Virus record (IMG/VR): IMGVR_UViG_3300010354_000541
Coordinates: 1-26,332 of that record
Strand: one strand, 5' to 3'
DNA: 26,332 nucleotides
Origin: a virus
Shown here: piece by piece, positions 3,845 to 25,128 of the stretch
Layout of the letters: every line of letters begins with the position of its first letter
How positions within the stretch are numbered: the stretch's first letter is position 1
Translations under genes and position numbers: made by a program
Notes under the pieces: generated by a model
Databases searched by the model: none
The model's input: the letters and a program-made list of their open reading frames with translations, nothing else
Told to the model about the DNA's origin: nothing

Positions 3845-3845
3845 G

Positions 3846-4343: not shown

Positions 4344-4347
4344 CGGG

Positions 4348-6944: not shown

Positions 6945-6952
6945 GGTGGGAA

Positions 6953-7180: not shown

Positions 7181-7188
7181 TGGGGAAA

Positions 7189-7650: not shown

Positions 7651-7661
7651 GGCAAGACCCT

Positions 7662-8105: not shown

Positions 8106-8109
8106 GGGC

Positions 8110-9710: not shown

Positions 9711-9735
9711 GGGTTGGTAGGGGCGGTGGGAGGGG

Positions 9736-11207: not shown

Positions 11208-11216
11208 GGTGGGGAA

Positions 11217-11549: not shown

Positions 11550-11579
11550 GTTCTGGGTGTGTTGGGTGTGGGTGGGAGA

Positions 11580-11720
11580 TTAGCGAACGCGGCGGACGAC
11601 GGCTTTGGCCTTGACCGGCTCCGGGCCGTTGATGGCGCGGTAGAGTTCCGGGCCACAGAACGTGACGACGGCCAGCCAGCCGAAGATGAGGATGGCGGCG
11701 AGGGTGACTAGGGATTTCAT
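11580..11720 (-). CDS. Small single-span membrane or secreted protein
   Basis: A 46-residue protein, MKSLVTLAAILIFGWLAVVT followed by FCGPELYRAINGPEPVKAKA and a basic end VVRRVR. Residues 4-22 form one hydrophobic helix. The leader CCACCCACAAAACACAACC matches that of neighbouring genes, which supports this start over the longer open frame from 11870, which overlaps the next gene. Function unknown. It could act at the host membrane early in infection. Confidence 0.6.
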   Translation of the reverse strand: MKSLVTLAAILIFGWLAVVTFCGPELYRAINGPEPVKAKAVVRRVR

Positions 11721-11742
11721 GGTTGTGTTTTGTGGGTGGATA

Positions 11743-11937
11743 TTAGGCGAGGCAGATGCCGTAAGCGTTAAGCACCTCGGTGACGTGCTCGGGATGGCCT
11801 TCAGCCTTCCAGGCGTTCCAGAGGTTCTTCGCGGCGATCTTGAAAGCCTTGTTGGCAGCGCGGCGGACAATCTTGTCAGACGAAATGCGGCCAGTGGAGG
11901 CGTTGCGGAGGGCGATGAGGGCTTCGGCGGTGTTCAT
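11743..11937 (-). CDS. Small hypothetical protein
   Basis: A 64-residue helical, basic protein (MNTAEALIALRNASTGRISS, then KIVRRAANKAFKIAAKNLWN). It is the first gene after the 212-base gap and so probably the first of the leftward early transcript. No domain is recognised. It may bind DNA given its charge, but this is only a guess. Confidence 0.6.
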   Translation of the reverse strand: MNTAEALIALRNASTGRISSDKIVRRAANKAFKIAAKNLWNAWKAEGHPEHVTEVLNAYGICLA

Positions 11938-12149
11938 GGTTTCGGTGGTGCGTCAATGACCTTGGCGAACTGTTCCGCATTCGTCAAGCACCTTTCCAAA
12001 CGAACCCTGTGCCGTTCTTCACGGCAACCCTTTCAATAGCGGGTTCGGGTCTGCGAGGCCCGGCATGGTGACCGTACCCCTCTCCGACTGAGTTCAGTTT
12101 GCCCCTAGGGTCGCCTCCGTCAAGGGGCATTAGACCCCTCTGGCTTGCC
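11938..12149. other. 212-base intergenic region between lysis-like and early gene runs
   Basis: No open frame of note. It holds a perfect hairpin at 12010-12026 (TGCCGT, loop TCTTC, ACGGCA) without a T tract, and a pair of GCCCCT/AGGGGC arms near 12099-12126. On the minus strand two TTGACG hexamers can be read as -35 boxes, but no good -10 lies 16-18 bases after either. As the only large gap in the minus-strand run, it is the best place for the early promoter and late terminator, which may use signals I cannot recognise. Confidence 0.5.
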
Positions 12150-12479
12150 CTAGGAGGCGTTTTGACGGCGGGAACGTAGGAAGACCGCCACCCCCACCCC
12201 TAAGCACCCCACGGCCAAGGCCCAGCCGAGGTCGCGGACGGCCTTCAGCGCCATCGTCGCGGAGGACAGGCCCTGCTCGACGCTGAGCGAGTCCGACTTG
12301 ATGCCTGCGTCCGTCACGATCATGACCAAGGCGTCCCGAGATTGCAGGGTGTCGAGGACATAGCCGGCAATGTAGGCCGACGAGAAAGCAGACACTCCCG
12401 CGAAGCCCGTGATGAGGGCGACCGCCAGCAGGAGGTTATCGCTTCCGCTTTGAGGCAGGCTTGGCTTTTGCTTTCCCAT
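12150..12479 (-). CDS. Two-span membrane protein, possible second holin or antiholin
   Basis: A 109-residue protein with two hydrophobic helices, at about 15-41 (NLLLAVALITGFAGVSAFSS onward) and 84-101 (LGWALAVGCLGVGVAVFL), separated by a polar loop and finished by RSRRQNAS. It overlaps the end of the LydA-type holin gene by 44 bases in another frame. A two-membrane-protein layout beside a holin is common in phage lysis cassettes, where the second protein is a holin partner or antiholin. That role is inferred from position and topology. Confidence 0.6.
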   Translation of the reverse strand: MGKQKPSLPQSGSDNLLLAVALITGFAGVSAFSSAYIAGYVLDTLQSRDALVMIVTDAGIKSDSLSVEQGLSSATMALKAVRDLGWALAVGCLGVGVAVFLRSRRQNAS

Positions 12480-12819
12480 TGGGTTTGGCGGCCTTAGCCG
12501 TTACGGCAGCGACTTCCTTTTCTCCGCGGGCCTTGATGTAACGCATCAGGTAGTCGAGGCACTCGGGAGCCGCGTAGCCTGCCGCGCCGACGACGGCCAT
12601 CCGAAGGCCCGGGCTGGAGATGTGTTCCTGGATGCCGTAGCCGACCATCGCGGCGGTGATCGCGGCGGCGAGGACACGACGCACGACCCAGCCGAAGGAG
12701 ACGGGCTCCGTCGAAAGCAGGAGACGGGCGGTCATCGCGAGGCCACCTAGGACCGAGGCGACGACGCCGTCCTTGAGTTCCTTCGGAATGGTTTCCGGGT
12801 CGATGGGCGAGGCGCTCAC
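12436..12819 (-). CDS. LydA-type holin (Phage_holin_3_3-like)
   Basis: A 127-residue protein with three likely membrane helices at about 18-35, 46-63 and 72-90. It has the family pattern: GGLAMTARLLLSTEPVSFGW, then RRVLAAAITAAMVGYGI, then AVVGAAGYAAPECLDYL. The glycine-rich third helix followed by a LDYL segment and a long Lys-rich cytoplasmic tail (AKPNGKAKAKPASKRKR) is typical of holins, which open the inner membrane at a set time. It overlaps both neighbours, the HExxH gene by 4 bases. Confidence 0.75.
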   Translation of the reverse strand: MSASPIDPETIPKELKDGVVASVLGGLAMTARLLLSTEPVSFGWVVRRVLAAAITAAMVGYGIQEHISSPGLRMAVVGAAGYAAPECLDYLMRYIKARGEKEVAAVTAKAAKPNGKAKAKPASKRKR

Positions 12820-13103
12820 GAGATGCGGGGGGGCTTGGCGTTGGGAGAGATGAGGACGCGGCGGTAGTCCTGGGACCAGAGCACGGCGGCGAGGTCTTTG
12901 CCTGCCCGGTCGACTTGAGCCTCGCTGAGAAAGGGGAACGTCAAGTGGATCTGTTCGTGGCAGAGCACCTCGAGCTGACGGCGTGCACCTAGGCGGGGGT
13001 CAATCTCGATGAGGTTCTCGCCAATGGTGGCCTGTCCCCACGCGCGCTCCTTGCCGAGTTTGCGCCAGACGACCTTGGCGGTCTTATGCTTGCGGCGGCT
13101 CAT
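12816..13103 (-). CDS. Small HExxH metallopeptidase-like protein
   Basis: A 95-residue protein of a small phage family. The middle reads ENLIEIDPRLGARRQLEVLC then HEQIH (residues 49-53), the HExxH zinc site, with the downstream LSEAQVDRAGKDLAAVLW helix that could supply a third ligand (E61 or D65). The family is widespread in phages with unknown substrate. Here it lies inside the lysis-like cassette, so peptide cleavage in the cell wall or envelope is a possible role, though there is no export signal. The start overlaps the lipoprotein gene by 20 bases. Confidence 0.7.
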   Translation of the reverse strand: MSRRKHKTAKVVWRKLGKERAWGQATIGENLIEIDPRLGARRQLEVLCHEQIHLTFPFLSEAQVDRAGKDLAAVLWSQDYRRVLISPNAKPPRIS

Positions 13104-13824
13104 CGTGCGTAGATTGGGAGGGCTTATTCACCGCATCGCGAACCTTGTCCCAGAGCCACCAGAGGCCGAGGCCGGCGGCGATGGCAATCGTGCCGACCGC
13201 GAGGGGCATGAAGAACGGGCTGTCGATGATGAAGGGCACCGACCCGCAGAAGGCTCCGCAGAGGAGCAGCGGGATGCCGATACGCGGGCCGAGGAACGCC
13301 GTGGACAGGGCGCCGATGGCGGCGAGGCCGGCGCCGACGAGCGTCCACGTCTGGGATGAGGCGTGCTTCTTCACGCGCTCGACCTCCTTCTGGAGTTCCA
13401 CAATCCGGGCGTCCTTCAGCTGAGAGACGCGGAGGGCTTCGGCCTGCTGGGCTTCGAGCTTCTCCCAGGCCTTGTTGACGGCGGTGGCGAGTTGGCGACC
13501 GAAGGCCATCTGCTTCTGGTAGTCCACGGGGTCGGCCTTTGTGGCCCGGGCAATCGCGAAGGCGACGTCGGCCTCGGGGGGCTGAGGCAGATAGGACTGA
13601 GCGAGGCGAGACTCGGCGACCACGACCTTCGGCTTGTCGGCGTTGCGCTCGATGGCGACCAGGGCGGAGGCGACGCGGTGGTCGGTCTTGTCCAGGTCTT
13701 TGCCTAGGGTCGCGACGACGTCCGGCTTGGTCGGGGCGTCCGGCTGCTTAGGCAGCGGCTCGTCCACGGGCTTGGACTTGCACCCAGCCAGGGCCACAAG
13801 GGCGATGACCAGGAGCAGGCGCAT
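13084..13824 (-). CDS. Lipoprotein with periplasmic coiled coil and C-terminal membrane helices (u-spanin-like)
   Basis: A 246-residue protein with a lipoprotein signal (MRLLLVIALVALAGC, lipobox LAGC, Cys 15). A Pro-rich linker follows (18-36), then a helical region with a coiled coil at about 118-156 (EKLEAQQAEALRVSQLKDAR onward). Three hydrophobic segments follow at about 159-179, 182-200 and 205-226, and a polar tail. A protein anchored by lipid at one end and by membrane helices at the other is the layout of unimolecular spanins, which join outer and inner membranes in the last step of lysis. The known type has one C-terminal helix, so three would be unusual. The role is inferred. Confidence 0.6.
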   Translation of the reverse strand: MRLLLVIALVALAGCKSKPVDEPLPKQPDAPTKPDVVATLGKDLDKTDHRVASALVAIERNADKPKVVVAESRLAQSYLPQPPEADVAFAIARATKADPVDYQKQMAFGRQLATAVNKAWEKLEAQQAEALRVSQLKDARIVELQKEVERVKKHASSQTWTLVGAGLAAIGALSTAFLGPRIGIPLLLCGAFCGSVPFIIDSPFFMPLAVGTIAIAAGLGLWWLWDKVRDAVNKPSQSTHDEPPQA

Positions 13825-13828
13825 AGAC

Positions 13829-13960
13829 TCAGCGACCCTTCAGGATGTCGAGCAGGCTGCGGCCCTTCGCCTCGATGGCGTCGGCCTTGGCCTTATGCTT
13901 CCTCATCACGAGCAGACCCGTGGCGAGACCGATCAGAAAGGAGACGATGGCGGTGATCAT
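13829..13960 (-). CDS. 43-residue single-span membrane protein
   Basis: A short gene: MITAIVSFLIGLATGLLVMR, then a basic helix KHKAKADAIEAKGRSLLDIL and KGR. One membrane helix spans residues 2-19, with a positively charged C-terminal side. Its ATG overlaps the fibre stop codon (ATGA), and its own stop is 4 bases before the lipoprotein start, which argues that it is real despite the length. It opens the lysis-like cassette, so it may be a small holin-type protein or a partner of the lipoprotein. Identity cannot be settled from 43 residues. Confidence 0.6.
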   Translation of the reverse strand: MITAIVSFLIGLATGLLVMRKHKAKADAIEAKGRSLLDILKGR

Positions 13961-15774
13961 GTTGAGAAAGTTCCAATCTTGAACCGGCTTATTTGAAACA
14001 CTCCGGCACCAGTTCCTACTTCGACATAAACGTCATAGTTATTACCATAAGGGAAACTCGTGGTAACGCCGCGAGAGTTCCCGGTCGAAGCGATGGCCGA
14101 AGAAGAGACCGTCCATGCTGTCTGCTGAACGCCAGCAAGATAAATTTGAAAATTGATGAAAGGCAATGTGCCATTGTGGTTGTAAAGATTGTTAAAACCT
14201 TCCGGGCAACAGAAGTCGAAGTAAACAGTCTGTTCGTATTCTACAGGGCTTTCAGGGTCAGATCCTGTGCAACTGAAAATGACATTGTGAACCCTAGTCG
14301 AAACAAGGTCAGCCCAGTTGAGTCCTAGATTGAACTCAGAGAAGGAACGATTAATTACTACGGTGTCATTAGCGATACCAGAAGGAGTCGGAGCCGATAC
14401 TGTTCCACTGAATGTGGCGCCAGACAAACTAGCCTTTGCCGCAAGAGCGCTGTTGAGGTCTGTCTGCGAGCTGAGCGTGCCGGTGATGCTTCCCCACGTC
14501 GCACCACCACCTCCAGAAACGACCTCCCATGCGTTGTTCTTTCGAGCGTACTGCGATCCGTTGGCCGGAGCATCGTTCACCGTCGAAAGCGTACCGAGGC
14601 CGAGGTTCGTGCGGGCAGTGGAGGTCGAGGCGAGACCCGAGAGATTGCCAGCCTTGCTCAGGTAGTTCGTCATGCCTGCCTGCGTCTGGTAGGTGCTCGC
14701 GGCGTTGGACTGCGTGAGGTAGGTCGATGCGGCGGCGCTGGTCGTCAGGTACGACGACATTCCTGAGATGGTCTGGTAGGTCGAGGCCGCGGTGGCGCTG
14801 GTCAGGTACGGCGTAAGGGCCGACGAGGTAATGTATCCTGCCGGGTTACTGGTGCTATACTTGCCATCGAGCGCCGTCTGGAGGTCGGTCTGGCTGGACA
14901 GCGTGCCGGTGATGGCACCCCAGGCCACACCCGAGGAGTCAGTCCCGTTGACCCAGAGGTTCGTCGAGGAGTTATACTTCAGGACCTGACCGTTGGTCGG
15001 CGAGGTGATCGAGACGTCGTGCAGTTCGTTCAGCTCGTAGCCGTTCTGGACGGCGACCAGGATGACGCCCTGCGTAGGATGAGCACGGACGACGATGCCC
15101 ACATAGACGAGGTGCTGCGGGGCCGAGGGCTTCGTGGTCGTCCACGTTCCGGCGGTCGTCGGGGAGAGGTAGAGTTGGACGCCTTCGGTCAGCGCCGACG
15201 TGTCGATGTTCTCGAGTTCGCCGCGGACGATGACGTAGCCCGTGCCGTTGTTAGCGATGCTCGTCTTCGTGAAGCCCATAGTCTGGGCGGAGTTCGCGTC
15301 GTTGTTCGCCTGGGCGAGCGTGATCAGGGGACGGTTGCCCGTGGCGCCGGAGATGTAGACGATGGAGCCGGCAGGGATGGTCGAGCCGGTCTGGTTGCGG
15401 ACTTCGACCTCGAGGTTGCGGGCGTTGGCCGTGCCGCCGAGCAGGCCGGCCTGGACGAAGGCGGTCGTCGCGATGGACGTGTCATTATCCCCGAAGGTCG
15501 GGGTCGGCGCCCGGGGGTCGCCCGTGAAGAGAGGGCTGGCAAGCGGGGCGTAGGCCGAGAGGTTGAGCGTGACCCAGTCGGTGTTATAGTTGACGCCGTC
15601 AATCTTCTGGAGGTACTGTCCAGCCGTGCCGCCAGCAGGGACGCCAGGGCCAGCAGGGCCGGTGGCACCAGTGGCACCCGTAGGACCGGCAGGGCCGGTA
15701 GCGCCAGGGGTCGCGACACTGCCAGAGATCGTGCCAGCGATGAGGGAATTGAACGTGCCGGTGATGGTCGCCAT
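13957..15774 (-). CDS. Collagen-like tail fibre or receptor-binding protein
   Basis: A 605-residue fibre. After a short N-terminal part that probably attaches to the tail, residues 23-46 are Gly-X-Y collagen repeats (PGATGPAGPTGATGATGPAG). QYLQKIDGVNYNTDWV (53-68) and the domain ending HDVSITSPTNGQVLKYNSST (252-271) are common in phage fibres. Residues 285-300 and 428-442 repeat as WG(A/S)ITGTLSSQTDL. Between them, 325-372 are short repeats with STYQT or STYLT. From about residue 470 the DNA is less G+C-rich, and the protein becomes Cys- and aromatic-rich (FDFCCPEGFNNLYNHNGTLP). That end is probably the receptor-binding tip. No chaperone-type autoprotease motif was seen. Confidence 0.85.
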   Translation of the reverse strand: MATITGTFNSLIAGTISGSVATPGATGPAGPTGATGATGPAGPGVPAGGTAGQYLQKIDGVNYNTDWVTLNLSAYAPLASPLFTGDPRAPTPTFGDNDTSIATTAFVQAGLLGGTANARNLEVEVRNQTGSTIPAGSIVYISGATGNRPLITLAQANNDANSAQTMGFTKTSIANNGTGYVIVRGELENIDTSALTEGVQLYLSPTTAGTWTTTKPSAPQHLVYVGIVVRAHPTQGVILVAVQNGYELNELHDVSITSPTNGQVLKYNSSTNLWVNGTDSSGVAWGAITGTLSSQTDLQTALDGKYSTSNPAGYITSSALTPYLTSATAASTYQTISGMSSYLTTSAAASTYLTQSNAASTYQTQAGMTNYLSKAGNLSGLASTSTARTNLGLGTLSTVNDAPANGSQYARKNNAWEVVSGGGGATWGSITGTLSSQTDLNSALAAKASLSGATFSGTVSAPTPSGIANDTVVINRSFSEFNLGLNWADLVSTRVHNVIFSCTGSDPESPVEYEQTVYFDFCCPEGFNNLYNHNGTLPFINFQIYLAGVQQTAWTVSSSAIASTGNSRGVTTSFPYGNNYDVYVEVGTGAGVFQISRFKIGTFST

Positions 15775-15775
15775 G

Positions 15776-16099
15776 TTAAGACTGGGTAATGGTTCCGAGA
15801 ATCTGCACGCGGAACTTGGTGGAGTGCGTCACGGGGCCGCCCGGGAACTGAAAGCGGATGTCCCAGCTCGCGAGGCCAACGGCCCAGTCGGAGGTATCAC
15901 CGACATAGGTAGCCGTGAAAGACAGACCTCCGGCGGCGATGACCACCGTCATGTCGTAGTCGTTGTTTGCCGAGTCGCGAAGGGTCGAAGTGATGGTCGT
16001 GCCCGTCAGCGTGGCGGGTTCTCCGGCGCCAGGAGTCCACGTCCAAGTGCTGGAGAAACTGTCTCCACGGGAAAACGATGCGGTTGTAGAGCAGCTCAT
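15776..16099 (-). CDS. Hypothetical structural protein, beta-rich
   Basis: A 107-residue Ser/Thr-rich protein (MSCSTTASFSRGDSFSSTWT) with alternating strands, a likely small immunoglobulin-like or beta-sandwich fold (ATLTGTTITSTLRDSANNDY). It ends one base before the fibre gene. Small beta-sandwich proteins next to fibres often attach them or decorate the tail, which is a fair guess here. The ATG follows motif CCAA-N3-GGGCAA at 16111-16123. Confidence 0.6.
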   Translation of the reverse strand: MSCSTTASFSRGDSFSSTWTWTPGAGEPATLTGTTITSTLRDSANNDYDMTVVIAAGGLSFTATYVGDTSDWAVGLASWDIRFQFPGGPVTHSTKFRVQILGTITQS

Positions 16100-16110
16100 C
16101 GGGTCTAACC

Positions 16111-16123
16111 TTGCCCCGATTGG
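16111..16123 (-). promoter_or_regulatory. CCAA-N3-GGGCAA leader motif, site D
   Basis: Minus-strand CCAATCGGGGCAA ends 11 bases before the ATG of the gene at 16099. It shares 15 bases with site C (TTCCAATCGGGGCAA). It may be a ribosome-loading or promoter element, and does not resemble a Shine-Dalgarno sequence. Confidence 0.5.
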
Positions 16124-16131
16124 AAGGGGGG

Positions 16132-16539
16132 TCAGGTCACGGGGTCCAGCAGGCCGATGTCGTCGATGACGGTGCCGATTACGGGGGGCGTGGTCGTCTG
16201 GTAGGGGCTGGAGAAAGCCGAAGCGTCAATCGTGAAAGTCTCGGCGAGATCGGTCGTGACGGTCTGCCCGGTCAGGACGGACTCATAGCGGACGTCCAAG
16301 TAGATGAAGGCGAAGACGGAGACGCCCTGTACGTTGATTGTGGCCGAAGGTTCGGCGCGGAACGGGTTAAATCCTCCAGCGATGAGCCCGTTGCCTTCCT
16401 CGCTTTTGAAGAAACCAGACGACGCGGCGTAGGTGACGTTGTGGTCGTTGACAGTCGGCGTCCCGCCCTGCACGACAGCCCGACGCAGGGTCGCCCACGT
16501 AGAGATGCCGATGGCATTGTCTCCGATCACGTAGCCCAT
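16132..16539 (-). CDS. Hypothetical tail-associated protein
   Basis: A 135-residue protein, MGYVIGDNAIGISTWATLRR at the start, mostly strands, with no recognised domain. It is joined to the gene before it by a TGATG overlap and lies between tail proteins and the fibre. Position suggests a tail-tip or baseplate component. Confidence 0.6.
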   Translation of the reverse strand: MGYVIGDNAIGISTWATLRRAVVQGGTPTVNDHNVTYAASSGFFKSEEGNGLIAGGFNPFRAEPSATINVQGVSVFAFIYLDVRYESVLTGQTVTTDLAETFTIDASAFSSPYQTTTPPVIGTVIDDIGLLDPVT

Positions 16540-17102
16540 CAGATGCGGGCGTAGTAATACTGCGCCGTGTCGGTGCCTAGCTTGATGCGGTCGCCCCAGA
16601 GGGAGCCGGTGACGTATTGGTTCACGCTGATGCTCGGACCCGTGGCCTCGGTGGCGACGGCCAGCAGGACGTACCCGTAGGTGTCGGTGTCAGCCAGGGC
16701 GACGTCCGAGTTGATGATGCGGGGGTAGTCCGTGGAGGTATCGTCGGCGCTAGGGAAAGCCCCCGTGGTCGCGTCCTTGCCTGCGCGCAGGTAAATAAAG
16801 CATTCGTGCGTCGTAGCGTCGAAGGGCGTCATCACCGAGACGGGCCAGTCAGGGACGCCGGCGGTCGTGCGGTCGAGTTTGACCCAGACCGCGTCCTCCT
16901 CGATCTGCGGTACCAAGTTGTTGATGGTGCCAGGGACGACCTGATAGAGCCACGCCGAGCCCGCCACGTCGTAGTGCAGGTTGACCACCTTCAGCGGGTG
17001 GTTGTTCGCCTGCGTGACAGACGGGAACGGGTCGGACGTGTCGAGGGTGAACCCGTGCGCGGACGAGTCGAAGTTATAGCCGACTCCGGGTTGCAGTTTC
17101 AT
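16539..17102 (-). CDS. Hypothetical tail-associated protein
   Basis: A 187-residue protein, MKLQPGVGYNFDSSAHGFTL at the start, with strand-rich, Thr- and Asp-rich sequence and an aromatic end (QYYYARI). No domain is recognised. The start overlaps the stop of the upstream gene (TAATG), and the end overlaps the next start (TGATG). The tight coupling implies the proteins are made in fixed ratio, as for parts of one tail-tip complex. Confidence 0.65.
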   Translation of the reverse strand: MKLQPGVGYNFDSSAHGFTLDTSDPFPSVTQANNHPLKVVNLHYDVAGSAWLYQVVPGTINNLVPQIEEDAVWVKLDRTTAGVPDWPVSVMTPFDATTHECFIYLRAGKDATTGAFPSADDTSTDYPRIINSDVALADTDTYGYVLLAVATEATGPSISVNQYVTGSLWGDRIKLGTDTAQYYYARI

Positions 17103-17935
17103 TAGACGGAGGCGTAGACGGAGCTGTTATAGCCCTCGCGGTTGAACCGCAGCTCATACTGGACCTTGTAGAGCAGGCCGAAATCCTCGAAGGACACCTG
17201 AGCCAAGAGCAACTGATTCTTTCCGCTGATAGTGAAAGACGTGCCCATGTAGTCGGGGACGAGTTTCTTTCCTGCGAACGTGCCGTTTCCGGAGGTCTTG
17301 CCGACCGCGTTTCGGTGATCGTTGACGATGGTCGAACTTGTCGTGTAGAAGATGCCAGACAGCGAGCACTGCGGGGCGAGGTAGTTCGTCTTGCCATAGA
17401 AGTCATTGAACTCGGCTTTCTTGAATCCCTTAAAGGTACGTCCTTTAGGGCTTTCAAAAGTGGCTCCGTTATTGCCTCCGTACTCTGTCGGATTGGTTCC
17501 AGGGATGACTTGAAAGTTCGGGTCTGCCTTCGTACCAGGGCTAGGACCGACGCCGGCGATGGGCGAGCCGGAGAAGCCAAGCGCCGTGGCCGTCTCGAAG
17601 AAGTTAGGGTGAGTCGTGATGTGCTCCGAGGTCAGACCCTGCGAGCCGGTGATCTGCGGGTCGGTCGACGAGGCGCCGTCGGCGATGCCCACGTAGTCAA
17701 TCGTCAAGGTAGCGATGCCTAGGGCATCAATGACATAGGTATAACGATGAGACTTGCAGTTTGCCTCGATAGGGCAATTCGAACCACGCATAAGGATGGG
17801 ATTTCCGGCGATGGCGCTTTCGTCCACCTTATAGACGACAGTAGCGGTCAACAAGCCGTATCCGTCATCGCTTACTTTGCCTCCTGGCTGTTGAAGGGCG
17901 GTGCCTAGGTTATTGCCTTGTTCGATGCGAGCCAT
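17102..17935 (-). CDS. Hypothetical structural protein after the tape-measure-like gene
   Basis: A 277-residue beta-rich protein, MARIEQGNNLGTALQQPGGK at the start. It is Gly-, Ser- and Asn-rich throughout with several Cys (GSNCPIEANC, APQCSLSG). In siphophages the gene after the tape measure normally encodes the distal tail protein, and this one has a plausible length. I see no signature for that family, so the role is from position only. No Shine-Dalgarno sequence precedes the ATG, which lies 3 bases after the previous stop. Confidence 0.65.
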   Translation of the reverse strand: MARIEQGNNLGTALQQPGGKVSDDGYGLLTATVVYKVDESAIAGNPILMRGSNCPIEANCKSHRYTYVIDALGIATLTIDYVGIADGASSTDPQITGSQGLTSEHITTHPNFFETATALGFSGSPIAGVGPSPGTKADPNFQVIPGTNPTEYGGNNGATFESPKGRTFKGFKKAEFNDFYGKTNYLAPQCSLSGIFYTTSSTIVNDHRNAVGKTSGNGTFAGKKLVPDYMGTSFTISGKNQLLLAQVSFEDFGLLYKVQYELRFNREGYNSSVYASV

Positions 17936-17938
17936 GGT

Positions 17939-18772
17939 TTATTTGGAAGGGGTCTTGGTGAAGTCGGTTGGGACGCCGGACGTGCCGGAAATCTTCTGAA
18001 GTTCTGCGAGCTGAGCCAAAGCAATTTCATTTTGCTTAGCCATTGCTTCAAGAACCGGGTTAGGTCCGACACCGATGACGTTGCCGAAGCCTTCAGGACC
18101 TTTGAAGTCCTTAGCCGCCGCCGCCGCCAGAGGGTCTTTCTTTTGCATCTCCATCAGGTTAAGGCGGACTGCCGCTTGGATTTCAGGAGACTTGGAAAGC
18201 AGTTCAGCCTGCTTTTCCCTAGCACCTGTAACTCCCTCTAAAGCCTTTAGGTATCCAGGCGCCTGTGAACTCCTTGTCTTAAGCTCCATCAAGGCCGCAC
18301 CTTCCTTAGTGTTTAGAAGGAAGTCCTTTGCGATCTGCTCGCTGGAAAGTTTTGCCTGCTCCTCAGACTCTGTCGCCTTCTTCTGAAGGTCGCGCTTCTT
18401 AGCCCAATACTGTTCCTCTTTGGAAATCAGTTCGTTCGTTCCGTCGATAGCCGCCTGATTGGCGTCCTGTTGCTTCTTCTGATTCTCTTCGATTTTCCTA
18501 GAGATGATTGAGATCGCGGCAGTGACCAAGGCCATCGGACCTAGGAAGGAAAGGAAGATGTCCTTGAAGGACATGCTGAACTTCCTGCCGATTTCATCGA
18601 CCTGTTTGCCGACGCTGACCGTGGACTCCTTACTGGCGTCCATGGAACGCTTGGTGGTCTTGCTGACTTTCTCGACCTGTTTGTTGAAGCTCTCTGTGGC
18701 CGCCTTGGCCTTATCCATGGCCTGCGGGACATCGGAGTTGGTCTTCAGGTCAATCTCAAGGGACTGGGACAT
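17939..18772 (-). CDS. Short tape-measure-like protein
   Basis: A 277-residue protein beginning MSQSLEIDLKTNSDVPQAMD and largely helical. It has a coiled N-terminal part, one hydrophobic helix at about residues 73-92 (IFLSFLGPMALVTAAISIIS), then a Lys/Gln-rich coiled coil (IEENQKKQQDANQAAIDGTN). This is the pattern of tape-measure proteins, and its place after the chaperone candidate agrees. It is short for that family. Known scaling of about 0.15 nm of tail per residue would give roughly 40 nm. Start 18772 is chosen because the frame further up is a shadow of the overlapping gene. Confidence 0.65.
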   Translation of the reverse strand: MSQSLEIDLKTNSDVPQAMDKAKAATESFNKQVEKVSKTTKRSMDASKESTVSVGKQVDEIGRKFSMSFKDIFLSFLGPMALVTAAISIISRKIEENQKKQQDANQAAIDGTNELISKEEQYWAKKRDLQKKATESEEQAKLSSEQIAKDFLLNTKEGAALMELKTRSSQAPGYLKALEGVTGAREKQAELLSKSPEIQAAVRLNLMEMQKKDPLAAAAAKDFKGPEGFGNVIGVGPNPVLEAMAKQNEIALAQLAELQKISGTSGVPTDFTKTPSK

Positions 18773-19361
18773 CGGTCGTAGGGGGGCTTTCCTTTGCAGG
18801 ATTGGAAGCAGTCGCGGCGGCTTCCTTGGCTTCCTCGGCTGCCATGAATGCTTCCTCCTCTGGGGACATGATCGCCACGTCCGCACCCTTGCGGATAGCC
18901 AGGGCGGAGTTAAGCCAGATGGCCTGGCACTCCGGCATCTCCCACGCGCGCTGCTCAGGGATGCCCGACGCGATGAGGTTTGCCACGATTGAAAGGGGCC
19001 ACGGGACGCCCTTGCTCCCACCTCCAGACTTAGCCTTATTCTGCTCCCAGAACTTAGGCCAGTCATGGACTAGGATGTAGCCGGCGAAGGCTTCGAGTGC
19101 TTTTTCAAAGTCTTTAGGATTATGGTTAAGCCAGGTTATCCTTACCTTATCGAAAAACCCAAGGTGGCCTAGGGGCTCCTCGGCGCATACGTGGCAAGCG
19201 AAGATAAGGTCAGCCGGAGTGATCGCACGATGCCCATCGACCAGAGGAGAGTTTAATCCCATCAGTCGCACCCGGTACTTTAGGCACCACGGGTAAAGAG
19301 TTCGACCCAGCAACCGAAAGCGGCCTGGGTCGATGTAGGCGTTCAGGAAGCGGCGGTCCAC
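18756..19361 (-). CDS. Putative tail assembly chaperone
   Basis: A 201-residue protein starting with GTG, directly after the sequence AGAGGA. The start MDRRFLNAYIDPGRFRLLGR, the segment LYPWCLKYRVRLMGLNSPLV and a late helix PECQAIWLNSALAIRKGADV resemble small phage proteins between tube and tape-measure genes that act as assembly chaperones. The tail is Glu/Ala-rich and disordered. It overlaps the tape-measure-like gene by 17 bases, and a CCCCCCT run sits just before that overlap. Chaperones of this kind are often made in two forms by ribosomal frameshifting. Confidence 0.55.
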   Translation of the reverse strand: MDRRFLNAYIDPGRFRLLGRTLYPWCLKYRVRLMGLNSPLVDGHRAITPADLIFACHVCAEEPLGHLGFFDKVRITWLNHNPKDFEKALEAFAGYILVHDWPKFWEQNKAKSGGGSKGVPWPLSIVANLIASGIPEQRAWEMPECQAIWLNSALAIRKGADVAIMSPEEEAFMAAEEAKEAAATASNPAKESPPTTDVPVP

Positions 19362-19395
19362 TCCTCTGATGCTAGCCCCTTTACAGGGGTGTCAA

Positions 19396-19776
19396 TTAGG
19401 CAGGCGTGATGCCTTCGTAGTCGACCGCCGTGATCGTGACAGCCGTGAAGCCCTTGTTCGAGCCCTTGTCATCAATCTTGGTGATGGTGCCGACGAAGGA
19501 CGCCGAGGCAGAGCCGGAGGGGTAGGCCGAAGCCGTGTTGACCGTGAAGGACAGGGCCGCGCCGAGGACCGGCATGGTCGAGGTCTTGGCGATGCCTTCG
19601 ATGGTGATCTCAGTCTTACGGTCGTCGTAACGGGCCGTCTTAGTGAGGCCGGCTTCGTCGACCACAGTGGCCTCGGAGTTGAACGAGGACGAAAGGCTGT
19701 AGCTCTGGACGAAGAGATTAGTGACAGTACCCGCGACTCCGTAGATGCAGGTGGTTCCGGTATCGATGGCGGCCAT
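19396..19776 (-). CDS. Probable tail tube protein
   Basis: A 126-residue all-beta protein, MAAIDTGTTCIYGVAGTVTN at the start. It has an internal stretch DEAGLTKTARYDDRKTEITIEGIA typical of the strand-loop-strand region of tail tube and related ring-forming proteins. It lies between the tail-completion and chaperone candidates, which is where the tube gene sits in siphophages. It is small for a major tube protein. A leader with the CCAA-N3-GGGCAA motif suggests strong or special initiation. Confidence 0.55.
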   Translation of the reverse strand: MAAIDTGTTCIYGVAGTVTNLFVQSYSLSSSFNSEATVVDEAGLTKTARYDDRKTEITIEGIAKTSTMPVLGAALSFTVNTASAYPSGSASASFVGTITKIDDKGSNKGFTAVTITAVDYEGITPA

Positions 19777-19782
19777 TTGTCT

Positions 19783-19795
19783 TTGCCCCGATTGG
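19783..19795 (-). promoter_or_regulatory. CCAA-N3-GGGCAA leader motif, site C
   Basis: Minus-strand CCAATCGGGGCAA ends 6 bases before the ATG of the tube-like gene. It is identical in its 13-base core to site D. Confidence 0.5.
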
Positions 19796-19797
19796 AA

Positions 19798-20232
19798 TTA
19801 GGCCGGAGGAAGGACCACCAGCACGTCAAAGGCGAAGGAGGTCGCCCAGGAGCGTTCGTCGAGTCCCTCGTCTTCTGAGACCATAGTGACGTCATAGCAG
19901 GACGCGTCCGTCGAGCTGACGAAGGCGGCCTTGATGGATGTCAGGTCCCTCATGTTTCCGGACAGGGCTGCGCATCGGGCGCGGTGATCGGCGAGGGTCG
20001 TGTCGTCCGCGTTGGAGAAAAGGGTGATGCGGACCGAGCAGGCATAGTTGCCAAGCCCCTCGGGGAGGTCGCCAGGAGCCCGGGCGGAGTCGCATAGGAC
20101 AACTGCTTTTGGCAGGGTCTGGGTCACGGCGCTGTCCCCCGTCAGGAATTGGACGGAGGTCAGCCCGGTCTGGGTGGACAGGTAGGTGGCAAGCGTGGCT
20201 TCCACGATGTGCCTAATGCTCTTCGTACCCAT
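19798..20232 (-). CDS. Putative tail terminator or tail-completion protein
   Basis: A 144-residue mixed alpha/beta protein, MGTKSIRHIVEATLATYLST at the start. The opening helix, followed by LPKAVVLCDSARAPGDLPEG and a strand with VRITLFSNADD, resembles tail-completion proteins that cap the tube. Those fold around a helix packed on a sheet. It comes right before the tube-like gene, matching the usual gene order. The call is inferred from pattern and position. Confidence 0.55.
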   Translation of the reverse strand: MGTKSIRHIVEATLATYLSTQTGLTSVQFLTGDSAVTQTLPKAVVLCDSARAPGDLPEGLGNYACSVRITLFSNADDTTLADHRARCAALSGNMRDLTSIKAAFVSSTDASCYDVTMVSEDEGLDERSWATSFAFDVLVVLPPA

Positions 20233-20239
20233 TGTACCT

Positions 20240-20252
20240 TTGCCCTTTTTGG
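20240..20252 (-). promoter_or_regulatory. CCAA-N3-GGGCAA leader motif, site B
   Basis: Minus-strand CCAAAAAGGGCAA ends 7 bases before the ATG of the tail-completion candidate. It also lies in the 70-base gap between this gene and the opposing ligase gene. Confidence 0.5.
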
Positions 20253-20266
20253 TAGTTTAAAGGAAC

Positions 20267-20295
20267 TTGACAGGGGGATGTGGGTAGCCTTTATT
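20267..20295 (+). promoter_or_regulatory. Sigma70-like promoter of the ligase gene
   Basis: TTGACA at 20267-20272 is a perfect -35 box. A 17-base spacer follows, then TTTATT at 20290-20295 (4 of 6 matches to TATAAT). Transcription would begin about 7 bases later, at or next to the ATG at 20303, so the mRNA would have no leader. Confidence 0.6.
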
Positions 20296-20302
20296 TGTGC
20301 GT

Positions 20303-21199
20303 ATGTTCGACGACCCGGCACTGACTAGCTTCCTTGGTATGCTACAGCATATCGAGGAGCACCGCGTCATCAGACCCATCAAGCGCAGGGTCGTTAAGGT
20401 TCGCCGTGGCCCTATGCTGGCCCGTCTTTATGCCGGCGAGACCCCTGCGTCCTACGTCTGCGAGCCCAAGGTCGATGGCCTCCGCGTCCTGATTACTGCC
20501 GACCTATCCCGTCGCGTCGTCCGTTTCGAGACCCGCAACGGCAACCCTATGCCTTCCCTCAACCATCTGGCCGACGAGGTGCTCGACCTCCTGGCTGGCA
20601 AGGATGGCATCTGGGTGCTCGACGGCGAGGCCGTGTCCGGCAAGTCCTTCTTCACCTCGGTCGGTGCCCTCCGCTCGGAACAATCCGCGGACGATGCCCG
20701 TGTCTGGCTGTTTGACATTCCATCTGTGGATGGCGATTACAGCACCCGCCGTGCCTCTCTGGAGGCTTTGTTCGCTCAGTCCTATCCTACGTCCCTCTTG
20801 CTCATCCCGAGCGTCTCCTGCACCCCGGCGGAAGCCTTTCTCCGCTTTACCGCCGAAGGCTTCGAAGGAGCCATGGTCAAGGACACGACCGCCCCCTACT
20901 CTTACGGCCTCCGCTCCAGGGCTTGGCTTAAGGTCAAGGACGCCGACACCACTGACGCCGAGATTGTGGACGTGGTCGAAGGCACGGGCAAGTGCGCCGG
21001 CATGGCAGGCCATATCGTCGTGCGCTGCGGACGCCGCTTGGTCAAAGTCGGCACGGGCATGGATAACGCCACCCGCGTCGCCCTGCTCGCCGACCGCTCT
21101 CAGCTCATCGGTCAGACCGCTGAGGTAGACTTCCAGATGAAGACCCCGAAGGGCTCGCTACGCCACCCGGTGTTCGTGCAGGTGCGCTCGGATAAGTGA
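20303..21199 (+). CDS. ATP-dependent DNA ligase
   Basis: A 298-residue ligase and the only plus-strand gene. Motif I is CEPKVDGLR with the adenylated Lys at 56, motif III VLDGEAV (106-112), motif IV EGFEGAMVKD (185-194) and motif V WLKVKD (208-213). An OB domain follows (214-298), ending LRHPVFVQVRSDK as in small phage ligases. It seals nicks after replication or recombination. A GTG at 20297 could add two residues, but the promoter predicts an mRNA starting close to the ATG at 20303. It ends directly against the stop codon of the opposing neck gene with no gap. Its opposite direction and own promoter suggest a separately acquired gene. Confidence 0.92.
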   Translation: MFDDPALTSFLGMLQHIEEHRVIRPIKRRVVKVRRGPMLARLYAGETPASYVCEPKVDGLRVLITADLSRRVVRFETRNGNPMPSLNHLADEVLDLLAGKDGIWVLDGEAVSGKSFFTSVGALRSEQSADDARVWLFDIPSVDGDYSTRRASLEALFAQSYPTSLLLIPSVSCTPAEAFLRFTAEGFEGAMVKDTTAPYSYGLRSRAWLKVKDADTTDAEIVDVVEGTGKCAGMAGHIVVRCGRRLVKVGTGMDNATRVALLADRSQLIGQTAEVDFQMKTPKGSLRHPVFVQVRSDK

Positions 21200-22156
21200 T
21201 TACTTCTTGTTGAAGTCATCGACATCCTGCTGAAGCAGGTGCCGGACTCGCTTTCGCATCTGCTTTGTCCTGTTAGCATAAACCAGTCCAAGAACATTAG
21301 CCTGGTCAGCAATGCCGTTCACGTTTCCACTTGGATTGGTCACTACAACGTGGGCTAACTTGTCGCTGAAGGAAGATGTATTGAAACCAGTAACTGAAGT
21401 ATGTCTGACGATCCAAGGAACGCTCAACAAATCGACGCCGAAGTTTTTTTCGACGCCGTTAATCATTGGCTTAGACAATGACCTCAAAGCCACGGCCCAT
21501 CCTGATTTGATTCTTCCGACCATAGCCTGTCGCTCCTTGATGTACTCCTTAAGTTCAGCGGTAGTTTCAACAAGTAGCTTCCTATGGATAGGCTTGATTC
21601 CCATGCGAACACGGCCTCCGTACTTCGCTTTGATCTGATTGTGGACCGGCCTCATGTTATGGACGAAGCCAAGAGTTCCGTAGTCACTGACGACTAGGTT
21701 CGTCTTGTTCAGGTAGTTCTTCGCTTTTTTGAATGCGCGCTCGTAGTCGTAGTCGTTAGCGATGCGCTGCATGATGGGTGAGAGGCCTTGAAGGGCCTTC
21801 ATAGATCCCTTTCCAATCAGCTGATTGAACAGGGCAAAGTCATTTGTCTTTGTCGCATATGCCAGGTTGATCGCTAGAACGTTAGCCGCGTTGCGGGAGT
21901 ATCGGTCATTAGCCGATACGAAAATCTTCCTGATGTCGCCTTCGACGGCGTTTTCACCAGCAAGTTCGGCCGCCTTTGTCAGACCCTTACCTCCGCCTTT
22001 TGGAATTGGAGGGGTAAATGTCGCGGCGTCCTGACAGGCAAGCGCTGCCTGCTCGAGCGTAGCATCTTTCAAGGTCTGCTTCGACCTTTTGGCGTATCGA
22101 GTGATAGCCTTGATGAAATCCGAATAAGACTTCGGATTTAGGCTGACCGTGACCAC
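21200..22156 (-). CDS. Putative neck or minor tail protein
   Basis: A 318-residue basic protein starting with GTG (MVTVSLNPKSYSDFIKAITR). The first third (KRSKQTLKDATLEQAALACQ and TFTPPIPKGGGKG) resembles HK97 gp10-type tail-completion proteins, where a helix precedes a P(x)TG-like loop. The rest is longer than that family and rich in Lys, Arg and Asn. The DNA is less G+C-rich than in the neighbours. It follows the neck candidate with a 6-base gap. The assignment is from partial pattern and position. Confidence 0.55.
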   Translation of the reverse strand: MVTVSLNPKSYSDFIKAITRYAKRSKQTLKDATLEQAALACQDAATFTPPIPKGGGKGLTKAAELAGENAVEGDIRKIFVSANDRYSRNAANVLAINLAYATKTNDFALFNQLIGKGSMKALQGLSPIMQRIANDYDYERAFKKAKNYLNKTNLVVSDYGTLGFVHNMRPVHNQIKAKYGGRVRMGIKPIHRKLLVETTAELKEYIKERQAMVGRIKSGWAVALRSLSKPMINGVEKNFGVDLLSVPWIVRHTSVTGFNTSSFSDKLAHVVVTNPSGNVNGIADQANVLGLVYANRTKQMRKRVRHLLQQDVDDFNKK

Positions 22157-22162
22157 GGCTGG

Positions 22163-22540
22163 TTACTGGTTATCGTCGATGACGACGAGGGTGATCCATG
22201 CCGACCCGGGCTTGTAGGTCTGGGTCGTGATGCGGACGGTCTTCCCGCCTGCCACGATTTTCTTGCCTTGGGCGAGGGAGGCGATGGGCACCCCTCCGCT
22301 AAGGGTGGCCGCCGATGCCCCAATAGACCCGTCTGGCTGGCTCCAGGAGGCCGTTACAGCGGGGAGCCTGACCGTATACTGGGTCCGCTCACAATACCCC
22401 CCTGCTTCGAGCACGGTCGAGACGGCGGGGTCGGAGATGAGGCAGGAGAAGGTGATGGCCCCAGAGTTGGCCGACCCGGCCACGCCGAAGTCCGCGATCA
22501 TCTCCTTCGCGTCCGCCAGAAACTCAGAGTAGAGGCTCAT
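22163..22540 (-). CDS. Putative head-tail joining protein
   Basis: A 125-residue protein, MSLYSEFLADAKEMIADFGV at the start, then mostly strands (TQYTVRLPAVTASWSQPDGS onward), a helix-then-barrel layout like small head-tail joining proteins. It is the first gene after the capsid terminator. Start 22540 is preferred because the longer frame from 22585 runs back through the terminator hairpin. The leader carries the CCAA-N3-GGGCAA motif. Confidence 0.6.
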   Translation of the reverse strand: MSLYSEFLADAKEMIADFGVAGSANSGAITFSCLISDPAVSTVLEAGGYCERTQYTVRLPAVTASWSQPDGSIGASAATLSGGVPIASLAQGKKIVAGGKTVRITTQTYKPGSAWITLVVIDDNQ

Positions 22541-22547
22541 CCTATAC

Positions 22548-22560
22548 TTGCCCGCTTTGG
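22548..22560 (-). promoter_or_regulatory. CCAA-N3-GGGCAA leader motif, site A
   Basis: Minus-strand CCAAAGCGGGCAA ends 7 bases before the ATG at 22540 and begins 9 bases after the T tract of the capsid terminator. Confidence 0.5.
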
Positions 22561-22569
22561 TAGGGGGAC

Positions 22570-22597
22570 AAAAAAAGACCCCCATCGCTGGGGGTCT
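22570..22597 (-). terminator. Rho-independent terminator after the capsid gene
   Basis: Minus strand: an 8-base perfect stem AGACCCCC, loop of six, GGGGGTCT (22597 to 22576), followed at once by TTTTTTT (22576-22570). It lies 21 bases past the capsid stop codon. This is the only textbook terminator in the window. It would raise capsid mRNA relative to the tail genes, which would then depend on read-through or a new promoter. Confidence 0.9.
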
Positions 22598-22618
22598 CGT
22601 TTAAGCCTGTCGGGCTGA

Positions 22619-23488
22619 TTAGGCCGTGGTGAGGCGGTTGAGCGAGGTCGCGCGACCGACAGCGGCACCGAAGAGCAGCGTGGCGGTGACGTTGTAGTAG
22701 CCGCTCTGCTCCTGGCCCATGAGGACCTGGACGCCGAGGCCGGTGTCGGCGTCGACAGCGTTGGCGACTTCGAAGCCCGGGATTTCGCCCATCGGGAGAG
22801 CCGAGGCGACCGCGATGGCGTCAGCGCCGCAACCGAAGCCGGCGAGGGATTCGCCGTTGGCGGGGAGGCTGTTCCACTGGTAGACAGCGGCGCCAGCGAG
22901 GGTGCCGATCTGGCCGGAGGTCAGGATGCCAGCACCGAGGACGGAGTTACCGATGATGGTGGCGTCGCCCAGGAGGTTGTTGGCGTAGGTCGGGTTCAGG
23001 ATGAACGCGCGGGGCTCGGCGGCCTTGGCGGCGTCGAGGACGCCCTTGGAGGCGACGACTTCCGAGTAGGACAGGGAGGCGCCGGTGTTCGTGCCGGAAG
23101 CGTAGTTGGCGGCGGTGATGAGGGCGCCGATTTCAGCGAGGCACTTTTCGGCGAGCGCGTTGGCGGCGGTCGGGACGAAGGCGTTGTTCAGGAACTGAGC
23201 GCCGTACATCTTGACGTCGAGGGGCGAGAAGCGGCTCGACACCTTGAAGTGCTTGAGGGTGACGTTCGCGGCGGTGATCGTCGCGTCGTCCTGGGTGAGG
23301 TAGCCGCCGGCGCCGAACTCGGTCGCGGTGGAGGTACCGATGAGGGGGACCTGAACGGTCTTTCCGGCGGACGACTCAGCGGCCGAGAAGACCGAGGAGA
23401 AGGCGCGCAGGGCGGGGAGCTTGCCCTTGAGGGAAGCGATGACGCTTTCAGCGAGGATGCTGGGAGCGGCGACGATGGAGTTAGCCAT
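22619..23488 (-). CDS. Major capsid protein
   Basis: A 289-residue protein, MANSIVAAPSILAESVIASL at the start. It has Ala/Gly-rich sequence, an early segment GKTVQVPLIG, and late GAGILTSGQIGTLAGAAVYQ and LGVQVLMGQEQSGYYNVTAT, consistent with an HK97-fold coat protein of the P22-like type. Position after the scaffold candidate, strong G+C-rich codon use and its own downstream terminator agree with the most abundant virion protein. The leader is C/A-rich without a Shine-Dalgarno sequence. No single diagnostic motif exists for the family, so the call rests on pattern and place. Confidence 0.8.
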   Translation of the reverse strand: MANSIVAAPSILAESVIASLKGKLPALRAFSSVFSAAESSAGKTVQVPLIGTSTATEFGAGGYLTQDDATITAANVTLKHFKVSSRFSPLDVKMYGAQFLNNAFVPTAANALAEKCLAEIGALITAANYASGTNTGASLSYSEVVASKGVLDAAKAAEPRAFILNPTYANNLLGDATIIGNSVLGAGILTSGQIGTLAGAAVYQWNSLPANGESLAGFGCGADAIAVASALPMGEIPGFEVANAVDADTGLGVQVLMGQEQSGYYNVTATLLFGAAVGRATSLNRLTTA

Positions 23489-23521
23489 GATGTGTTAGGA
23501 TTGGGTGAGGGTTGAGGGAAA

Positions 23522-23962
23522 TTAGAGAGCAGCCTTGATGATGGCGTGCTTGTGAGCGGCGAAGTAATCGTTGCGCTCCTTGGAACCGACCGGGAGGGAC
23601 AGGAAGGTCGCCAGGTGGTCGACGGCCTCGGCGGTCGGCTTGGCGTCCGCAGGGCTGATTTCGACAGGGGCGACGCCGACGGAGGCCACGATCTTGGCGG
23701 CTTCCTTGGAGGCGCTGACCTTGGAGGCTTCGTGCTCGGCGACCAGAGCCTTGAGGGACTCGGCGTCCTTGACGGCGGCCTCGAGGGCGGCGGTCAGTTC
23801 GGCGAGCTTCGCATCCTTGGCGGCGGCTTCGACCTTGAGGGATTCCAGTTCGGCGGCGGCGCCGACGGTCATCTTCTCGACAGTGGTACGGAGGTCGTCG
23901 CGCTCGGCGGTGAGGCCCGAGAGAGCGGCGTTGGCGGCGAGCAGCTGTTCTTCGATGGTCAT
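23522..23962 (-). CDS. Nested scaffold protein from an internal start
   Basis: An in-frame ATG at 23962 would give a 146-residue protein that is just the coiled-coil part (MTIEEQLLAANAALSGLTAE). The 30 bases before it are locally AT-rich and G-poor (AATAATTCCATTCCTAGCAA), unlike the surrounding coding DNA and similar to the leaders of other genes in this window. In lambda, the scaffold Nu3 is likewise made from an internal start in frame. This is an inference. Confidence 0.45.
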   Translation of the reverse strand: MTIEEQLLAANAALSGLTAERDDLRTTVEKMTVGAAAELESLKVEAAAKDAKLAELTAALEAAVKDAESLKALVAEHEASKVSASKEAAKIVASVGVAPVEISPADAKPTAEAVDHLATFLSLPVGSKERNDYFAAHKHAIIKAAL

Positions 23963-24343
23963 AGTCTTATGTTTGCTAGGAATGGAATTATTCGCGGACT
24001 GTTCGCGGTCGAGTTGCTCGACTTTACGCTCGGCCCATTCGGCGGTGCGCATGATGTCGCCGGAGGTCGGACCACCCCAGAGAGCCCACGCGACGGCACC
24101 CGCTCCAGGGAAGTCCTTGTTGTCCGGGTCGTTCTTCGGAGCGTCCATGTCAGCGCGGTGACGACGGAACCAAGGACCCATCCTGCGGACCTTGTCCTCG
24201 GAGATGGAACCTTCGACCATGTCGCGGGCTTCCCGCAGAGTCTGATCGGTTACGCCGTCGCCGGACTTACCCTCCCGATGCCACTCAAGGCCACGACGTG
24301 CGGCCTCGGTGACATAATCAGGAACGGGTACAGTCTGAGGCAT
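23522..24343 (-). CDS. Two-part protein: small N-terminal domain plus coiled-coil scaffold
   Basis: A 273-residue protein. Residues 1-110 form a domain seen in phage head regions (VTEAARRGLEWHREGKSGDG, then RRMGPWFRRHRADM and GAGAVAWALWGG). Residues 128-210 form a long coiled coil of Ala, Glu, Leu and Lys (LAELTAALEAAVKDAESLKA), as in scaffolding proteins. The two are joined by a linker NNSIPSKHK. The ATG overlaps the protease stop (TGATG), so protease and scaffold are coupled, which is the lambda C/Nu3 arrangement in a split form. Confidence 0.7.
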   Translation of the reverse strand: MPQTVPVPDYVTEAARRGLEWHREGKSGDGVTDQTLREARDMVEGSISEDKVRRMGPWFRRHRADMDAPKNDPDNKDFPGAGAVAWALWGGPTSGDIMRTAEWAERKVEQLDREQSANNSIPSKHKTMTIEEQLLAANAALSGLTAERDDLRTTVEKMTVGAAAELESLKVEAAAKDAKLAELTAALEAAVKDAESLKALVAEHEASKVSASKEAAKIVASVGVAPVEISPADAKPTAEAVDHLATFLSLPVGSKERNDYFAAHKHAIIKAAL

Positions 24344-25128
24344 CAGAACGAACGCAGGGCGTCGTTGAAGGAGTCGGCCAAGCCAGTGACCAAGCCCTGG
24401 GCGGCGGCCTGCTTGCCTGAGAAGACCTGACCTTCCATGGCTTCGGCCTTCACCATCTTGCGCTTCATGTTCACGGCCTGCTTGAACTCGGCGTGGATAG
24501 TGTCGACGCCTTCCTGAAGGTTCGCCATCTGGTTCTCGTCGAGGCTGGTGCCTTCGATGCCGGCGCCCTTGAACTTGCCGGACTTGATGACGACCATCTT
24601 GATGCCGGCCATCTTGGCGGCTTCAGAGTAGTCAGGAATCGCCATGTAGACGCCGATGCTTCCGACCGTGGAGGACGGGCTGGCGACGACGCGATCCGCA
24701 GCCGAACCGATCCAATAGGCGGCGGACGCCATCTCGGAGTCGGTGTAGGCCAGCGTGGGCTTGCCGTAGTTACGCACCTTGTTGGCAAGTTCTTCGACGC
24801 CCGTGACGGTGCCGCCAGGGGAGGAGATTTGCAGGGCGACCTTCTCGACCTCTGGGTTCGCGGCGAACGCGTCGAGGGCTTCGGCGATTTCGTTGACGTC
24901 CGCGGCGCCCATCATCTTCTCGAGCGGGGACAGGCCCTTGCCGATGACGCCGACGACCGGGATGATGCCGATGCCGTCGACCACGTAGGGCTTGGGGGCG
25001 ACGCCGAAGAGCTGAGAAAGCATCTCCGTGAAGCCGAACTTCTCGGCGAGGACGGCGTGGTCCTTGGCCTTGGTCGGGTCGATGAGGAGGGGCTCGCGGC
25101 CCGACAGTCCGTTGGTGAGGAAACGCAT
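24343..25128 (-). CDS. S49 (SppA/ClpP-fold) capsid maturation protease
   Basis: A 261-residue protease of the lambda gpC type. ISSPGG (101-106) forms the oxyanion-loop region. The serine nucleophile is in EMASAAYWIG (Ser 135), and GSIGVYMA (156-163) and IKSGKFKGAG (181-190) contain the conserved segment with the catalytic Lys. It should cut the scaffold or portal during prohead maturation. The start is the ATG at 25128, 7 bases after the portal stop. The open frame further up to 25440 is a shadow of the portal gene. The leader CTCCTAATTTCCCC is C-rich. The end overlaps the next start by one base. Confidence 0.9.
   Translation of the reverse strand: MRFLTNGLSGREPLLIDPTKAKDHAVLAEKFGFTEMLSQLFGVAPKPYVVDGIGIIPVVGVIGKGLSPLEKMMGAADVNEIAEALDAFAANPEVEKVALQISSPGGTVTGVEELANKVRNYGKPTLAYTDSEMASAAYWIGSAADRVVASPSSTVGSIGVYMAIPDYSEAAKMAGIKMVVIKSGKFKGAGIEGTSLDENQMANLQEGVDTIHAEFKQAVNMKRKMVKAEAMEGQVFSGKQAAAQGLVTGLADSFNDALRSF

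Follow-up and report, generated by a model that had tools for sequence, protein, structure and literature searches.

What is the role of the short motif CCAA-N3-GGGCAA, which stands directly before several late genes of this phage? The DNA analysed, here called the window, is a 26,332-bp IMG/VR virus record, and an earlier note on it had left two readings side by side, an enhancer of translation initiation and a late promoter element. The promoter is the better supported of the two, because the element ends in a pyrimidine and an A (Y-A) at a fixed place, its distance to the ATG varies, a terminator and a divergent gene lie upstream of some sites, and a sister group of phages has changed its sites in concert. 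The reading as a translation enhancer is weaker and is kept since the element is nearly always close to an ATG.

No near relative of the window was found among named phages. Verrucomicrobia phage P8625 is the sole relative with a name; its major capsid protein (MCP) is 29% identical. Overall, we compared about 200 related IMG/VR sequences. Group A consists of 80 contigs with at least 90% identical MCPs, fetched by MCP-based retrieval, and the sister group C, first met in a MAG-derived contig, consists of 80 fetched contigs with an MCP identity of 43%. The hosts of these phages appear to be Verrucomicrobiota, and Shine-Dalgarno-scarce genomes are reported for some members of this phylum (PMC10783764). 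One near-complete relative, the G002 contig, has 32,851 bp (32.85 kb) and wraps after 28,230 bp. In its segments 1-4621 and 28231-32851, the gene family called G5 below, the terS side and the protein before terS occur twice, 28,230 bp apart; the two copies differ, with 76% ungapped identity, and judging from the sequence the genome, of about 28 kb, is either permuted or over-assembled.

A 20-base element before six late gene families

The exact motif has five matches in the window, all on the minus strand and none on the plus strand; in Markov simulations of the window 0.05 exact matches were expected, and no run out of 300 gave more than 1. Four of the five, at 22548-22560, 20240-20252, 19783-19795 and 16111-16123, are the gene-start sites already described, and our measured distances of 7, 7, 6 and 11 bases to the ATG agree with the 6-11 bases given before. 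The count of four was incomplete in two ways. A fifth exact match at 8943-8955 had not been listed; it is coding, representing the Lys-Glu-Gly-Lys end of ORF 8930-9223, and lies by chance 9 bases before the ATG at 8933. Furthermore, a site before G6 (23987-23968, with an internal start at 23962) was overlooked because its core differs. The match at 8943 results from a coding repeat in the region 8110-9223, where tandem coiled-coil ORFs, apparently duplicated, have a common ENARLKAEVERL and the Lys-Glu-Gly-Lys C-terminus. The variant that had been proposed before the gene at 6232 (CAAGACCGGGCAA) is ordinary coding sequence, lies off the refined consensus and is due to chance. An element-like match upstream of terS (TGCCAGACGCGGCAAGAATA) was also rejected, since it belongs to the coding part of the gene next to it (NARRGKNK).

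When six gene families, G1 to G6, were profiled de novo, the motif was redefined as the wider T-N-CCA-W-W-N4-GCA-W-N3-Y-A of 20 bases; the original core is real and had been drawn too narrowly. Aligning the upstream regions of orthologs, we found the T, CCA, GCA and the final A to be invariant and the GGG dispensable: in G3, G5, G6 and group C it is swapped for CCT, CCC, CTC, TCG and others, with CCA and GCA kept. As the GGG is not conserved, the element is not a Shine-Dalgarno site, as had been stated before; it offers no conserved purine-rich core at 5-9 nt from the start that could pair with CCUCC, and, judged by eye, CCAA followed by GGG is the wrong order for pairing with the 3' end of the 16S rRNA. 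Numbered from the final A as +1, the profile has CCA at -17, GCA-W at -8 to -5, variable bases at -12 to -9 and a GC-rich centre. The first T (-19) and the last A (+1), neither of which was used in finding the sites, are 99% conserved, and the Y at -1 is missing in some orthologs. No conserved hexamer was seen upstream of the element in the profile of the orthologs.

In the 80 contigs of group A the exact motif is found 144 times in sense and 0 times in antisense orientation, nearly always 4-12 bases 5' of an ATG. The refined pattern gave 289 sense and 0 antisense hits in the 81 sequences of the group A set, about 281 of which precede the ATG of six orthologous late genes; about nine have no ATG ORF after them, at most two of these not being explained by a cut at the contig end. 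Reversed and permuted control patterns were never found before an ATG, and patterns with altered spacers had few matches, mostly coding. Thus the two checks that the earlier note had proposed came out in favour of the motif: inside genes and on the antisense strand the refined pattern is essentially absent, and in related genomes the element is present at the same genes. Well over a hundred uncultured relatives carry it in front of the same set of five or six structural genes, a count that overstates independence because the window's group is itself related to group C.

Scanning the window with the refined pattern gave exactly five sites, the four known ones and the one before G6, all on the minus strand. 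The G1 element (22543..22562, TACCAAAGCGGGCAAGTATA; PWM score 26.0 of 32.6) has its predicted +1 at the A at 22543, with a predicted leader of 3 nt to G1 (22163..22540, minus strand, by ortholog alignment), and the refined motif precedes 119 of 126 G1 orthologs. At the G2 element (20235..20254, TACCAAAAAGGGCAAAGGTA) the predicted +1 is 20235 and the leader again 3 nt, before G2 (19798..20232, minus strand, by ortholog alignment). The G3 element (19778..19797, TTCCAATCGGGGCAAAGACA; PWM score 30.0), with a predicted +1 at 19778 and a leader of 2 nt, is conserved in 146 of 155 orthologs; G3 itself (19396..19776, minus strand) is tail-tube-like by position. The G4 element (16106..16125, TTCCAATCGGGGCAAGGTTA; PWM score 27.2) has a predicted +1 at 16106 and a leader of 7 nt, is conserved in 125 of 125 orthologs and precedes a gene (15776..16099, minus strand) matching phrog_1084 (E 1.4e-7) and BppU-like by eye. 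For the G6 element (23968..23987, TTCCATTCCTAGCAAACATA) the predicted +1 is 23968 and the leader 6 nt. It lies within an in-frame upstream ORF in the window and directly after a TAA stop in relatives. In the window the scaffold-like gene forms one reading frame with the small gene before it (23522-24343); since a TAA separates these two genes in most relatives, an internal start at 23962 is likely, from which the sequence encodes the scaffold-like coiled coil MTIEEQLL... (23522..23962, minus strand).

The motif had been said to mark those late genes whose start follows a gap. This is partly true, with two exceptions: the MCP gene (22619..23488, minus strand; PHROG 283, E 3.8e-14) begins at 23488 after a gap of 30+ bases, and a GTG gene begins at 19361, both after a gap and neither with the motif. 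The GTG gene has GAGGAG instead. In the leader alignment, the MCP gene has an A/C/T-rich leader and lies behind G6 in a unit closed by a terminator.

Distance to the ATG and upstream context

The Y-A is at a fixed distance from the GCA, and the distance of the motif to the ATG varies from 4 to 12. In G4, where the element-ATG spacing is 10-12, the A remains fixed relative to the motif, 7-8 bases before the ATG. The conserved A is mostly 0-11 bases from the AUG. At the near end, it is the A of the ATG itself in the G1 of L073/L174 and L263, in one G6 and at 55 group C sites; group C G1 is mostly leaderless by prediction, like L073/L174. At the far end, the distance reaches about 33: in L040 (6194), L054 (4631) and L133 (119) an insertion (AAGCCTAACCCGCTAAAAATTTTTTACCCTCT) forms an inserted leader that moves the G3 start codon away and leaves the element intact. 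From the sequence we predict late mRNAs with leaders of 0-8 bases.

An intrinsic terminator with a 10-pair stem and a T run (22568..22598, minus strand) lies behind the MCP gene and ends just upstream of the G1 element; it is conserved before G1 in groups A and C. G2 is preceded on the opposite strand by a gene for an ATP-dependent DNA ligase (20303..21199, plus strand, identified by eye), located between the gene at 21200-22156 and G2, so that the G2 element faces the divergent ligase promoter. The G2 element is present in 30 of 30 relatives with ligase-length spacing, in 0 of 66 in which G2 stands immediately behind the preceding gene, and in 16 loci without the ligase in which a short gap is present. 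The terminator before G1 and the divergent gene before G2 call for new transcripts at these places. The G3 and G6 elements are found within tightly packed operons, which could in principle do without a second promoter.

Upstream of G5, which is outside the window, a 24-bp imperfect hairpin was observed between terL and G5 in L202 (about 1440-1510). Eight pairs are changed on both sides in alignment A5, with 99.8% of cells paired. The hairpin overlaps a possible ORF of ~38 aa, is followed by C/T runs and then the G5 element, and had no match in Rfam.

The ligase promoter itself is of the sigma70 type (20267..20295, plus strand): TTGACA (20267), 17 bases, TTTATT and 7 nt to the ATG, with the first T at -36, and is predicted to be leaderless. 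Relatives have TTGACR before the ligase at -36 or -43/-44. Also in P8625 and its relatives TTGACA is found exactly 36 bases before the ATG at several genes; upstream of 5448, 10772 and 15594 of P8625 (L201) it is accompanied by inverted repeats such as GTATCCA-N4-TTGGATAC, and these sites are probably sigma70 promoters for leaderless transcripts, combined with an operator. In the 63% group of P8625 relatives, compact TTGACA...ATG sites were dropped, as overlap with a stop codon was seen at only two genes. Together with the scarcity of Shine-Dalgarno sites reported for some Verrucomicrobiota, the TTGACA sites at -36 make a promoter abutting the ATG plausible in these hosts.

A sister version of the element and its possible factor

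Group C has a shifted version of the element, TTG-CCAAW-N4-GCAR-N4-A, before the same gene families, with 279 sense and 0 antisense matches in its 80 contigs. The C-type pattern had zero matches in group A, the A-type pattern zero in group C, and no contig mixes both; all 80 contigs of group A are purely A-type, and of the 80 in group C, 79 are purely C-type. Because all sites changed together, this argues indirectly for a diffusible, trans-acting and phage-encoded factor.

The candidate is a conserved protein of ~175 aa, encoded between the helicase region and terS, just before terS. It was found in 15 of the 21 long records searched and is 63-71% identical between the groups. By eye its C-terminus is HTH-like, with a putative recognition helix that reads SHFWMRARAKEI in one group versus SHEAMRKRARAI in the other; fixed group differences fall in this helix (3 of 12), and also in a variable loop and the tail. 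The case for this protein is weak, because any core gene separates the groups, the structure model is poor, and profile and database searches gave no significant family, PDB or sigma match. As a sigma factor it lacks profile support, and we retain it as a lead only.

The early HTH protein (10941-11207) was rejected as the factor, since its clades do not track the element type: that of L113 (group A) is nearly identical to that of L349 (group C). Its model had no significant PDB match. Beside it, at 9736-10941, lies an ORF resembling DNA cytosine methyltransferases by eye, which is nearly unique to the window (two matches among the relatives fetched). The about 210 bp at 11938-12149, at the boundary of the lysis-side and early genes, have no obvious gene, contain TTGACG and are a possible early promoter region.

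The proposed late promoter, its rivals and known systems

Taken from the sequence, the element is in our judgement probably a phage-specific late promoter with leaderless or nearly leaderless transcripts. It would span -19 to +1 and transcription would start at the final A, preceded by a pyrimidine at -1. Late transcription would be re-started before G5 (portal side), G6 (scaffold and MCP, up to the terminator), G1, G2, G3 (tail) and G4 (baseplate/fibre), and host ribosomes for which Shine-Dalgarno pairing matters little would begin on the (nearly) 5'-terminal AUG. The sites would be read by a phage-made trans-acting factor, perhaps the protein before terS, acting through the host RNA polymerase; the host enzyme is assumed because the phage encodes no polymerase. 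In the ORF inventory of the G002 contig there is no polymerase-sized unassigned ORF, the largest being the 961-aa tail fibre, TerL and the helicase. Against a promoter, such an element has no need to lie within 12 bases of an ATG, a closeness that equally suits a translation signal, and it comes with neither -10 and -35 boxes nor a polymerase gene.

That closeness speaks for the main rival, in which the element works in the mRNA, as the site of a phage RNA-binding protein or of a special ribosome contact that activates or represses late translation. The element is on the sense strand only, always 0-12 bases upstream of the ATG with one lineage excepted, stands in for translational coupling at G2 and precedes genes that begin without Shine-Dalgarno sites; the co-change in the sister group fits an RNA-binding factor too. 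However, folding revealed no conserved RNA structure (mean z-scores 0.5 to -1.0), with G6 sites nearly unpaired and no stem-loop of the hairpin operator kind known for RNA-phage coat proteins. Moreover, the Y-A tracks the motif and not the AUG, which can be up to 33 bases away, the context of G1 and G2 calls for new transcripts, and the MCP gene manages without the element. We therefore regard this rival as rather unlikely.

Much less probable is RNA processing, with a nuclease that cuts a polycistronic late mRNA at Y/A, so that new 5' ends arise immediately upstream of the start codons. The fixed Y-A beside the motif would suit a cleavage point, as would the position between tightly packed genes (G3, G6), but neither G2 behind an opposite-strand gene nor the G1 terminator is explained, the element is unstructured, and we know of no nuclease with such a cleavage site. 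Hardly credible at all is the idea that the phage borrowed a host-type signal, be it that of an alternative sigma factor or a host ribosome-binding site: the apparent hosts may be Shine-Dalgarno-scarce, but the element occurs at about control frequency in 57 genomes from the same class as the Verrucomicrobiota MAG, its three matches in the MAG holding phage contigs are all phage, and the two phage groups use different versions.

For the preferred late promoter, individual parts have precedents in the T4 and AR9 late promoters. At late promoters of the T4 type, host RNA polymerase is guided by gp55, a small sigma factor of the phage. The element resembles them as a compact element by the start site, without a -35 and before many late genes, and the proposed model shares host polymerase and a small phage protein. 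T4, however, has TATAAATA at -10, and here CCA...GCA lie at -17 and -8 around a GC-rich centre; the profile has no such box, and no gp55 homolog was found. Phage AR9 late promoters read AACA-N6-T(A/G), the last base being the start (PMC5312081). Both have a short motif at a fixed distance to an initiator, which is T-A at the AR9 start site and Y-A, by prediction, here. AR9 differs in sequence, encodes a multisubunit polymerase and has leaders of 26-491 nt, unlike the genome of about 28 kb with no polymerase and predicted leaders of 0-8 nt studied here. Promoters of T7-like single-subunit polymerases are likewise about 20 bp long, end at +1 and are A/T-rich at -4 to -1, but their sequence is unrelated and the near-complete relative has no such polymerase gene. 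A search with PF00940 gave no match, as did its controls. The sigma70 promoters of P8625 and of the window's ligase resemble the element in that transcription is predicted to begin on or beside the ATG; they differ from it in having TTGACA at -36 and a -10-like hexamer, both of which the late element lacks. No sigma70 promoter (TTGACA/TATAAT, 16-18 apart) was found on the minus strand at 5000-24999, and the spacing does not fit sigma54 or ECF promoters.

In the literature searched we found neither the element nor its ATG-abutting architecture nor a matched sister version. We tentatively suggest, with clearly less confidence than promoter function itself, a new late-promoter class in which a small phage protein that had so far escaped recognition, perhaps the HTH-like one before terS, would redirect host RNA polymerase to a 20-bp, ATG-abutting element without -10 and -35, the late mRNAs being leaderless and factor and sites having co-changed between the sister groups.

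Little is known about late-gene switching in phages of the Verrucomicrobiota, an abundant and poorly cultured phylum. Here, sequence alone yields a sharp signal with almost no errors, two specificities that form a matched pair and, with a genome of about 28 kb, a small set of possible factors. Should the promoter be confirmed, it would couple late transcription to leaderless translation in a Shine-Dalgarno-poor host, and would allow late operons to be annotated and start codons to be corrected in hundreds of uncultured phage genomes.
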